This document shows positions 4,624 to 37,614 of a stretch of DNA of 45,635 nt, one piece after another. The stretch comes from Cytophagales bacterium (lineage in GTDB: Bacteria; Bacteroidota; Bacteroidia; Cytophagales; VRUD01), in the NCBI GenBank assembly GCA_019456305.1, contig VRUD01000032.1, forward strand, positions 1-45,635, read 5' to 3'. The stretch's first letter is position 1. Each line of letters begins with the position of its first letter. The notes beneath the pieces were generated by a model. It was given only the letters and a program-made list of their open reading frames with translations. It ran no database searches and was not told the DNA's origin. Position numbers and translations under genes: made by a program.

Positions 4624-5967
4624 ATGAAAATTCTATTAACTTCTACAATATTATTTCTGCTAATATTTATAGCACCAATCTACGCCCAAAACTCCTGGAC
4701 CTGGCAGGAATTAAACCCGATGCCTGAGAAGGTAAGCAACAATGCCGTTGCTGCTGCAGTCAAAGACAGTGTTACCTACGTTTATTCTTTCATGGGGATT
4801 GACTCAACAAAACTCTGGTCAGGCATCCATCTTAAAGCATTTCGTTATAACACGCAAACCAACGTCTGGGATACCATCGCACCTGTTCCTGATAATCTTA
4901 CCAGGATCGCTGCTTCTGCCAACACTGTAAAGAACAAAATATACATTATTGGAGGATATCATGTATATGCAAATAATAGTGAAGTATCTTCCAATAAAAT
5001 ATTTATTTATGATCCTCAAAGTGACAGTTATTCTCAGGGTGTAAACCTTCCGGTAGCCATTGACGACCAGGTGCAGGTTGTATGGAGAGACAGCCTTATA
5101 TTTATCATTACAGGGTGGAGTAATACAGGAAATGTAAGCAGTGTTCAAATCTATAATCCTGCCTTAGATACTATAATGCAGGGAACTCCGGTACCTAATA
5201 ATAATCTGTATAAAGCTTTTGGCGCTTCCGGAGTAATAATTGGTGATACTATTTATTATTGTGGCGGGGTTGAACATTCAACCTGGAAAAATGTAAATTT
5301 TCTGCGTAAAGGTGTAATTAATCCCGTTGACCCGAGTGACATAACCTGGACTAATCCTGCAACCAATCCGGGCGATAAAGGATACAGAATGGGAGCCGTA
5401 GTGTATGGAAATACAGGTTTTTGGATTGGAGGAGCGGGTAATTCTTATAATTACGATGGTATCGCCTATGACGGTACCGGTGGTGTAGATCCATTAGATA
5501 GAATAATGGCCTATCATGCAAAATCACAAACATGGGAAGTTGATACTGCAACCCCATTCAGTGTAATGGATTTGAGAAATATTACTCAAATTGATTCTAA
5601 TCAATATATCATTGCCGGTGGTATGCTGCCGGGACAAGCGGTAAGTAACCGTGCATTCCTGCTCACCTATACACCACCCCCTGTAACGGGAATTACAAGT
5701 ATTAAAAGTGCCGATAATATTAAGGTATATCCAAATCCTGTCAACAATACTTTACAAGTAAACATTAACGGTACTGTTGATAATTCAACCCTTAAAATCG
5801 AATTAATGGACATAACAGGAAAAATATTGATAGATGAAAAAATTGCCGGTGCTATTATTACCTATCAACTCAATATGAGAGAATATGCCACGGGTAGTTA
5901 TTTTTTAAGAATAACCAACGAAAAAGAACAACTAATCAATTCATATAAAATTCAAAAAATCAATTAA
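4624..5967 (+). CDS. Kelch-repeat secreted protein with T9SS sorting domain
   Basis: A 447-residue protein. The signal peptide ends near IYAQ (residue 22). Several Kelch-like beta-propeller blades follow, seen as RYNTQTNVWDTI, KIYIIGGYHVYA, IFIYDPQSDSYSQG, IYYCGGVEH and HAKSQTWEVD. The last 80 residues are a T9SS C-terminal domain (KVYPNPVNNTLQVNING, ELMDITGKIL, YATGSYFLRI). It should be exported and displayed on the cell surface or released. Its ligand is unknown. It begins 12 bp after higA, with no separate promoter obvious. Confidence 0.87.
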   Translation: MKILLTSTILFLLIFIAPIYAQNSWTWQELNPMPEKVSNNAVAAAVKDSVTYVYSFMGIDSTKLWSGIHLKAFRYNTQTNVWDTIAPVPDNLTRIAASANTVKNKIYIIGGYHVYANNSEVSSNKIFIYDPQSDSYSQGVNLPVAIDDQVQVVWRDSLIFIITGWSNTGNVSSVQIYNPALDTIMQGTPVPNNNLYKAFGASGVIIGDTIYYCGGVEHSTWKNVNFLRKGVINPVDPSDITWTNPATNPGDKGYRMGAVVYGNTGFWIGGAGNSYNYDGIAYDGTGGVDPLDRIMAYHAKSQTWEVDTATPFSVMDLRNITQIDSNQYIIAGGMLPGQAVSNRAFLLTYTPPPVTGITSIKSADNIKVYPNPVNNTLQVNINGTVDNSTLKIELMDITGKILIDEKIAGAIITYQLNMREYATGSYFLRITNEKEQLINSYKIQKIN

Positions 5968-5989
5968 CAATTTCTAAAATTAACCACCA

Positions 5990-6006
5990 ATCCGTCAGTT
6001 GACGGG
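5990..6006. repeat. CCGTCA-GT-TGACGG palindrome
   Basis: A perfect 6-bp stem with a 2-nt loop, CCGTCAGTTGACGG, in the 59-bp gap between the Kelch and DUF1566 genes. It is too short and lacks a T-run, so it is not a convincing terminator. Confidence 0.5.
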
Positions 6007-6026
6007 TTAACAAAACAAAAATTATT

Positions 6027-7142
6027 ATGAAAAAATTAACTATAACATTCGTAACTACACTTATCTGTATAATCTTTTTAAATCTGTGCCTGCCCCGATT
6101 TCTCGGTGGTAATCTATGTTTCGCGCAAGCACCGCAATCTTTTAAATACCAAGCCGTAGCAAGAGATATTAGTGGTAACATTTTGGCTAATCAGGCAGTC
6201 GGTTTTCAAATCAGCATTTTAAAAACTACTGCAACAGGCATAGCAGTATATATTGAAACACACACTGATACCACCAACCAATTTGGATTGGTGAACTTGG
6301 AAATTGGCAAAGGTACAGTTACAACTGGCGATTTTACAACGATTGATTGGGCAAACGATGATTACTTTATACAAGTAAAAATGGACGCTACTGGTGGGGC
6401 CACTTATGCTATGATGGGAACTTCCCAACTGCTTTCGGTGCCTTATGCGCTTCATGCAAAAACAGCAGAAATTGTTACAGAAACCGACCCAGTATTTGGC
6501 TCATCAGTAGCAGGTGGTATTACTGTAGCAGATACAGCCAATTGGAATGCACACACAGTTGATACCGATACACATTTAGATTCTACTGGAGTAGCTGCTT
6601 TAGGTTTTGTAGCTGGAGCACATGTAGACTCTACAGCAATAGCGAATATGGGTTTTATTGCTGGAGGCGCTTCAAGCTCATTTTACTTAGGACAAGATAC
6701 CCTTGGCGGTATTATTTACAACCTGTACATTGGTAGTGATGGGCTGCAACACGGTTTAATTGTGAACAAAACAGAAAGCACGGCAGTATGGCAAGCAACA
6801 GGAACAACCACTAATGCTATACGTAGTTGGGATGGTGTTTTTAATACAGATTCAATGACAAGTAGTGCCGCAGCAACGTATGTAAATGGGTTAACAAGTG
6901 GTGGCTTTACCGATTGGTACTTACCAAGCATTGATGAGTTAAGTTTACTATGGCACAACCGTTTTTATGCCAACAAAGCATTAAATACTGGTGGCTTTAC
7001 TTTACTCTCAAATACAGCTAACTATTGGAGTAGTACGGAGTTTAATACGACCAATGCGATCCACTTCGGTTTCTTCAATGGAAACGCGACCCTCAACTCT
7101 AAGACTAGTACCTTGTCAGTTCGTGCGGTTAGGGCTTTTTAA
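6027..7142 (+). CDS. DUF1566-type (C-type-lectin-like) exported protein, candidate diversified protein
   Basis: A 371-residue protein. An N-terminal signal peptide is interrupted by LPRFLGGN, encoded by a CCGA-TTTC-TCGG palindrome at 6095-6106. Residues of about 35-150 (FKYQAVARDISGN, VGFQISIL, VPYALHAKTAE) match the N-terminal region common in Bacteroidota surface proteins. The C-terminal 150 residues match DUF1566: DWYLPSIDELSLLW, NYWSSTEF and the terminal VRAVRAF. DUF1566 adopts a lectin-like fold and is a known target of diversity-generating retroelements. Codons 7044-7120 show the expected pattern (see the variable-region entry). No reverse transcriptase is in the window. Confidence 0.85.
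   Translation: MKKLTITFVTTLICIIFLNLCLPRFLGGNLCFAQAPQSFKYQAVARDISGNILANQAVGFQISILKTTATGIAVYIETHTDTTNQFGLVNLEIGKGTVTTGDFTTIDWANDDYFIQVKMDATGGATYAMMGTSQLLSVPYALHAKTAEIVTETDPVFGSSVAGGITVADTANWNAHTVDTDTHLDSTGVAALGFVAGAHVDSTAIANMGFIAGGASSSFYLGQDTLGGIIYNLYIGSDGLQHGLIVNKTESTAVWQATGTTTNAIRSWDGVFNTDSMTSSAAATYVNGLTSGGFTDWYLPSIDELSLLWHNRFYANKALNTGGFTLLSNTANYWSSTEFNTTNAIHFGFFNGNATLNSKTSTLSVRAVRAF
7020..7139 (+). other. Candidate DGR variable region (VR)
   Basis: The last 40 codons of the DUF1566 gene run from NYWSSTEF to VRAVRAF. Between these fixed ends, about 15 codons are of NNC/NNT type (acc, atc, cac, ttc, ggt, ttc, acc, ctc, tct, act, agt). All of them encode residues reachable from AAC/AAT by changing adenines. 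This is the signature of adenine-specific mutagenesis of a template. The matching template repeat and reverse transcriptase were not found in this window. Confidence 0.55.
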
Positions 7143-7160
7143 CTATTTACCCCGTGAGAT

Positions 7161-7409
7161 ATGTTTTATTATGTTTATGTTTTAAGAAGTAAGAAGGATA
7201 ATAATAATTATGTTGGTTATACTGAAAATCTGGAAAAAAGATTAGATGTTCACAATTTTGGAAAAGTTCAGTCTACAAGAAACAGAATGCCTTTGGAATT
7301 GATATATTTTGAAGGTTGCTTAAATCAGCAAGATGCAACAAGACGTGAAAAATATTTAAAAACAGCATGGGGTAAAAGATATATAAATTACACGAATTAC
7401 ACAAATTAA
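7161..7409 (+). CDS. Small GIY-YIG endonuclease-domain protein
   Basis: An 82-residue protein that is essentially one GIY-YIG domain. YYVYVLRS and YVGYTENLEKRLDVHN carry the Tyr and Arg residues of the active site, and RREKYLKTAWGK holds the metal-binding glutamate. This is the UPF0213/URI-type single-domain family, whose cellular role is uncertain. It starts 18 bp after the DUF1566 stop. The last residues, INYTNYTN, and the stop codon are encoded by the left arm of the GTGTAATTCG inverted repeat, so the natural C-terminus has been replaced by repeat sequence. Confidence 0.87.
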   Translation: MFYYVYVLRSKKDNNNYVGYTENLEKRLDVHNFGKVQSTRNRMPLELIYFEGCLNQQDATRREKYLKTAWGKRYINYTNYTN

Positions 7410-7446
7410 ATTAGTGTAATTATTAATTAGTGTAATTCGTGTAATT
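7386..7446. repeat. Inverted repeat of GTGTAATTC words between convergent genes
   Basis: A perfect 17-bp inverted repeat (arms 7386-7402 and 7430-7446), each arm being two copies of AATTACAC. The 27-bp loop repeats the same word again. The left arm encodes the end of the GIY-YIG protein. The repeat lies just before the convergent SSS symporter stop and could act as a bidirectional terminator. Confidence 0.85.
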
Positions 7447-7453
7447 AGTGGTT

Positions 7454-37439: not shown

Positions 37440-37518
37440 GGTTTAAAAGTATTGAGTATTGATATTTTAGTATTTAGATAAAATAATTCAAGTCTTAGCA
37501 CGCACACCTTAAGTATCT

Positions 37519-37614
37519 ATAGGGCATCTCTAAAAACTACACCATACATTCCCCTCTATCAAGAGGGGCAAGGGGTGTGTTTTAAAAAATATGTAGTTTT
37601 TAGAGATGCCCTAT
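37519..37614. repeat. 96-bp element with perfect 23-bp inverted ends
   Basis: Arms 37519-37541 and 37592-37614 (ATAGGGCATCTCTAAAAACT and complement) match exactly. Nested inside is CCCCTCT-ATCA-AGAGGGG followed by GGGGTGTGT, the same family as 12382-12531. It lies between nrdB and nrdA, where it must be transcribed if they share a transcript. 37615-37687 holds only a T-tract and the TGTCAACTGCC words of the nrdB end. Confidence 0.92.

Follow-up and report, generated by a model that had tools for sequence, protein, structure and literature searches.

The window, that is, the whole 45,635-nucleotide stretch analysed, belongs to a 159-contig draft MAG that is 98.4% complete; T9SS tails and relatives would place this genome in the Bacteroidota. 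The gene of interest is a target gene of the kind served by diversity-generating retroelements (DGRs) (Table 1). Its frame is unbroken and keeps the family-invariant residues. The encoded protein starts with a signal-peptide-like N-terminus, continues with an adhesin-like N-domain, and ends in an Lcl_C (DUF1566) domain (Pfam match at residues 249–369, E 4e-14). Residues 32–105 of the N-domain, which is weakly similar to Bdellovibrio mosaic adhesive trimer fibres, match NCBIfam Bdello_MAT_N at E 9e-11, below that model's cut-off.

The upstream flank of the gene recurs beside a second target on contig C68 (87.6% identity over 249 bp and 98.7% over 77 bp), and the 5′ part of this second target is itself a paralogue of the corresponding part of the window gene. 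We refer to the variable regions (VRs) of the window gene and the C68 gene as VR1 and VR2, respectively. Another short mobile repeat, of 98 bp and 99% identical between its copies, lies at 37516–37613 of the window and at about 2184–2281 of C68 (locus L016), where it separates the T9SS gene from the target. Downstream of the window gene, a GIY-YIG nuclease-like ORF occupies the slot held by avd in DGR cassettes. We considered this ORF as the element that displaced a cassette, but it is single-copy in the genome, so that role is not established. The repeat at its 3′ side is a palindrome (AATTACACGAATTACAC...).

Table 1. Features of the target locus in the window and of the complete DGR at locus L020 of the relative DT_38
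Feature	Coordinates	Strand	Basis or remark
Upstream T9SS Kelch gene 3′ end and intergenic region	5730–6050	+	duplicated beside second target (C68)
DGR target gene	6027–7142	+	ORF, 371 aa
Lcl_C / C-type-lectin-fold domain	6771–7133	+	AlphaFold2 model, Foldseek, VIA-align
Variable region VR1	7014–7139	+	aligns with L020 template repeat (L020 2559–2687)
Core of variable codons	7041–7106	+	codon alignment; NNY and NNC enrichment
Constant 3′ end of VR1	7113–7139	+	conserved with 3′ end of L020 TR/VR
Expected start of post-VR hairpin region	7143–7160	+	only ctatttaccccgtgagat remains
GIY-YIG nuclease-like ORF	7161–7409	+	Pfam GIY-YIG, E 9e-16
Multicopy palindromic repeat	7386–7451	+	3′ of GIY-YIG ORF; dozens of copies genome-wide
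L020 avd	L020 2074–2418		follows the target
L020 template repeat (TR)	L020 2559–2687		
L020 reverse transcriptase (RT)	L020 2749–3990		413 aa

To describe the fold of the Lcl_C domain, we used the best of five AlphaFold2 models (16-sequence alignment), the only one of the five to reach a pLDDT of 82.7 and a pTM of 0.80. The top Foldseek match of this model was the C-terminal domain of Legionella Lcl (8q4e, E 1.3e-5), and VIA-align gave Z scores of 12.3 for 8q4e, 11.2 for 4eps, and 9.1 for the C-terminal tip domain of Bdellovibrio Bd2740, with many C-type lectins further below. The Lcl domain belongs to the same family and fold as the window domain (33% identity over 115 residues); Lcl is a collagen-like adhesin and serves here as a structural match only. 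4EPS is a structure linked to DUF1566 DGR targets (PMC4159848). The model and the PDB matches thus agree with the original prediction of a DUF1566 domain with a C-type-lectin fold, and this fold carries VR1, which would form a ligand-binding edge on a putatively secreted protein. The DUF1566-type targets of human microbiomes likewise combine a C-terminal DUF1566 domain, a VR at the end of the gene, and a 4EPS-like structure, but in those cases a DGR was detected alongside the target (PMC4159848), whereas no working DGR was found for the window gene.

The codon usage of VR1 is distinctive to a limited degree. Of the 25 codons that follow GAG (7041–7115), 19 are NNY; the remainder of the gene has 192 of 346 (p = 0.03). 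For NNC, the corresponding counts are 11 of 25 and 57 of 346 (p = 0.002). The stretch ties the gene's maximum for both counts, and its GC3 is 0.64 vs. 0.28. An NNC/NNT-rich middle, more C-ending than the rest of the gene, had been part of the original prediction and is borne out by these counts. The prediction also held that the residues in this middle are accessible from AAY; this is true but adds nothing to “NNY,” because every NNY codon can be reached from AAY. Similarly, the fixed ends that it named, YWSSTE and VRAVRAF, are present, but they are in part motifs of the family and also occur in relatives with no DGR seen nearby. The codon signal of VR1 on its own is therefore modest; it becomes strong once VR1 is aligned to a real TR.

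Such a TR came to light when 85,000 species genomes were scanned. Locus L020, a 4,110-bp contig of the Flavobacteriales MAG DT_38 (JABSPQ010000183.1), carries a complete DGR in the order gene with a T9SS-type-looking tail, target, avd, TR, RT. The VR of L020 differs from its own TR at 15 of 51 adenines and at 1 of 78 other bases, the textbook picture of a DGR. The L020 target is orthologous to the window gene (74% amino acid identity in the C-terminal domain), its VR has the same position and length, and the template lineage is shared. VR1 is 79.5% identical to the L020 TR over 132 bp, and most codons of its core lie opposite AAC or AAT of that TR. Counting the first 84 bases from TATTGG, 16 of 39 adenines are changed but only 3 of 45 other bases (p = 2e-4), with the TR of another species standing in for VR1's own template. 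The bias persists at codon positions 1 and 2 (13 of 35 adenines vs. 1 of 21 others). In contrast, the 112 flanking codons of the two targets show no adenine bias (8 of 69 adenines and 26 of 155 other bases differ). Third positions differ in 40 of these 112 codons, compared with 2 of 24 (non-adenine) in the VR. Low silent divergence together with high divergence at adenine sites reads as the trace of repeated overwriting from a conserved template. On this comparison, in which the L020 TR aligns codon for codon with adenine-biased differences, we identify 7014–7139 as the variable region of a DGR target, as had been predicted for the C-terminus. Its constant 3′ end, which shares 84% identity with the end of VR2 across 37 bp, sits where an initiation-of-mutagenic-homing site would be expected.

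Across 291 genomes of the order, VR1 found weak matches to its 3′ end only. A phage origin of the target gene is unsupported, since its Lcl_C relatives on viral contigs are all distant; two of these (L094 and L098) carry avd and RT. DT_38 itself has a second cassette (L109/L110, contig C275) with complete avd and TR; the RT frame there diverges from its homologues around residue 135, close to where the contig ends, which may again reflect an insertion.

We found no comparable cassette in the window's own genome. The search that the original prediction had proposed, for a copy of the template and an RT, detected no template repeat for VR1 or VR2 in the 159 contigs of the draft, and the DGR-type RTs that it detected were fragments. 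An RVT_1 profile search returned RTs on three contigs. The RT on C17 was rejected as a group II-type maturase, and that on C21 (locus L003, 667–2421) was rejected as a UG39 defence RT (DRT; 584 aa, UG39 defence-RT model E 2e-196). The third, on C90, is DGR-like: it contains LPIGNLTSQ and YVDD and is 62–64% identical to the RTs of L020 and L026. However, it is 5′-truncated: its reading frame opens only at about residue 108 and runs to 406. The bases preceding it belong to the terminus of a multicopy element (...TTTTGTCTATTAGACC) with at least seven occurrences in the genome. Contig C95 preserves the last ∼57 residues of a DGR-type RT (351–407). Beyond these two fragments, the 98.4%-complete contigs hold no intact DGR-type RT and no RT N-terminus.

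The avd gene fared no better. Other matches to the bAvd model occur in the genome, but the sole one recognised as a DGR-avd is that on C68, beside the second target. It is 81–86% identical to the avd genes of DT_38 and ends at residue 63 of about 114, cut after codon 62, inside CTAG, by a MITE with about 11 copies. The copy on C10 identifies the element as a MITE, being ∼330 bp long, bounded by inverted ends, and flanked by CTAG at either end. This MITE-like element (TATAGCG...CGCTATA, with a variable interior) occupies 1–74 of C68, has copies on C10, C5, C52, C69, C138, and other contigs, and terminates several contigs. We dropped the idea that a single insertion element accounts for the ends of both contigs, C68 and C90, as its two termini, because a copy of the C68-side element carries inverted ends of its own, to which the C90-side end is unrelated. 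C68 and C90 may nevertheless be two pieces of one cassette, the TR of which would then lie between the elements, on an unbinned piece. None of the constituents of a complete active DGR (TR, intact RT, and Avd) was found in working form in the draft assembly.

The window gene also lacks a sequence element that accompanies several of its relatives. The 11-mer CCGCGAAGCGG forms a 5-bp stem with flanking A/T and a GAA loop, and it lies about 15–65 bases 3′ of the stop codon at C68, L020, L026, L028, L109, and L038. It also follows the VR in the Legionella locus L031 and appears nowhere else in the 585 kb of DNA searched. It follows every avd-linked VR inspected in this Bacteroidota group, and avd adjoins all loci of this set that carry it except L038. 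Legionella cassettes L034–L036 have a different, longer inverted repeat at the same place. In the window, no such hairpin follows position 7142; similarity to L020 stops at 7149, shortly before the GIY-YIG ORF. The next closest relative of the gene, L021, likewise has no hairpin, and its locus yielded neither avd nor RT. In phage BPP-1, homing is efficient only if an inverted repeat stands directly 3′ of the VR, 8–10 bp with a 4-nt loop being optimal (PMC3240598). Tests of this requirement are confined to BPP-1, and CCGCGAAGCGG is shorter than the BPP-1 repeat, so that we infer a homing role for CCGCGAAGCGG from its position and conservation. Absence of the hairpin lowers the claim that the window gene is a working target, not the claim that it is a former one.

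At L038 (1–250, from a MAG labelled Chitinophaga pinensis), the 3′ end of a target and the hairpin are followed by no avd but by two tandem genes with the target N-domain and collagen-like repeats; this is possibly a remote target that has kept its hairpin. In this Bacteroidota group, CCGCGAAGCGG can be used as a marker of avd-linked targets, and a genome-wide search with it led to a third DGR-type relic, on C77 (locus L117, 6195–8155, minus strand). This is a Fib_succ_major target interrupted close to its end by an in-frame TAA; the hairpin comes next, and then a truncated 42-aa ORF (MKVSDILSLEGKNTDSIHLLKEGIFWRAY...). Hairpin matches on C134, which stands apart from the other contigs in being GC-rich, were set aside as probable chance or contamination. 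A fourth relic, on C95 (locus L124, 4184–7495), is a frame-shifted target with a similar-looking C-terminus ending in ...GFGVRCVED; the same contig holds a 314-aa transposase-like ORF in addition to its RT fragment. Among the four target loci, of which that on C68 contains an assembly gap, only the window gene is seen complete and in frame.

Taken together, we consider it likely that the window gene is a DGR target that is intact but orphaned, and probably frozen: the C-type-lectin-fold tip of an adhesin, which survives amid DGR wreckage. L020 keeps the hairpin, avd, TR, and a full-length RT beside its target; the window gene is without all four. In an ancestor, a DGR RT with Avd would have copied a nearby TR, misreading its adenines, and the cDNA would have overwritten the VR, leaving NNY-rich scrambled codons at the ligand-binding edge of a secreted adhesin-like protein. 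The VR1-type TR, avd, and RT would then have been lost from behind the gene, as would the hairpin for homing, while the DGR genes found elsewhere in the genome have all been truncated, by mobile elements or through decay. Diversification of VR1 would thereby have ceased, and the gene would now be an ordinary one, frozen in the last variant that it received.

The strongest alternative builds on the suggestion of a remote second target in the original prediction: VR1 would be a live target, still overwritten in trans by an intact DGR of the L020 lineage that escaped assembly. The genome is a draft, and its contigs end inside mobile elements, so short contigs left out of the bin may hold a TR or RT. 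Remote targets are also documented in other bacteria (PMC7517822). Furthermore, DT_38 has both template lineages, one per cassette (L020 and L109), which makes it plausible that a second cassette existed here too. However, contigs of such completeness yielded neither a TR nor an RT N-terminus, the RT and avd that they did yield are broken, and VR1 has no hairpin downstream. We therefore regard a live remote target as improbable, and less likely than an orphaned, frozen one.

Two other readings fare worse. An ordinary Lcl_C gene, never diversified by a DGR, could owe its codon pattern to family conservation and chance, as the modest codon signal and the shared end motifs might suggest, but this is very unlikely given an orthologue in a complete DGR, the TR of which aligns along the whole VR with an adenine bias that the flanking domain does not share. 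Equally hard to credit is the idea that the template of the C68/C90 cassette served the window gene as well, although both targets sit in one genome and share an upstream gene and a 5′ half: VR2 fits the template of L026 (TR26; 21 of 38 adenines changed vs. 2 of 46 other bases, p = 1e-7) and not that of L020, whereas VR1 fits the L020 template and not TR26 (13 of 46 non-adenine changes), and the constant 3′ ends of VR1 and VR2 differ. Because the two VRs fit different template lineages, the C68 cassette, even when intact, was probably not the diversifier of VR1.

Returning to the orphaned, frozen target, orphan targets and DGRs degraded near transposases are already known in cyanobacteria, including remote or orphan variable proteins such as all3226 of PCC 7120 and the degraded DGR between transposases in Anabaena sp. 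90 (PMC7517822). As in the window genome, these cases include a CLec target that has VR homology but no RT near it, and a degraded RT next to mobile elements. They come from another phylum and domain family, whereas the window genome additionally shows several relics at once and a target without its cis hairpin. Less usual is that one genome holds four target loci alongside broken machinery and that the sole intact target has lost its hairpin. A more specific possibility, which we hold tentatively and as somewhat less probable than not, is domestication: the gene would be the product of a DGR in which loss of hairpin and cassette locked in a chosen variant, its frame kept, in a genome where mobile elements dismantled four DGR target loci and all of the machinery. 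If true, domestication would amount to a natural switch-off of hypermutation at the target's own cis site. Surveys anchored on RTs miss orphan and remote targets, a limit stated in PMC8144416. Here, a DGR target was recognisable from its VR alone and then provable with a foreign template, an approach that aids the finding of such targets. The genome, moreover, offers a case in which to study the death of DGRs and the possible retention of frozen variants as useful adhesins.
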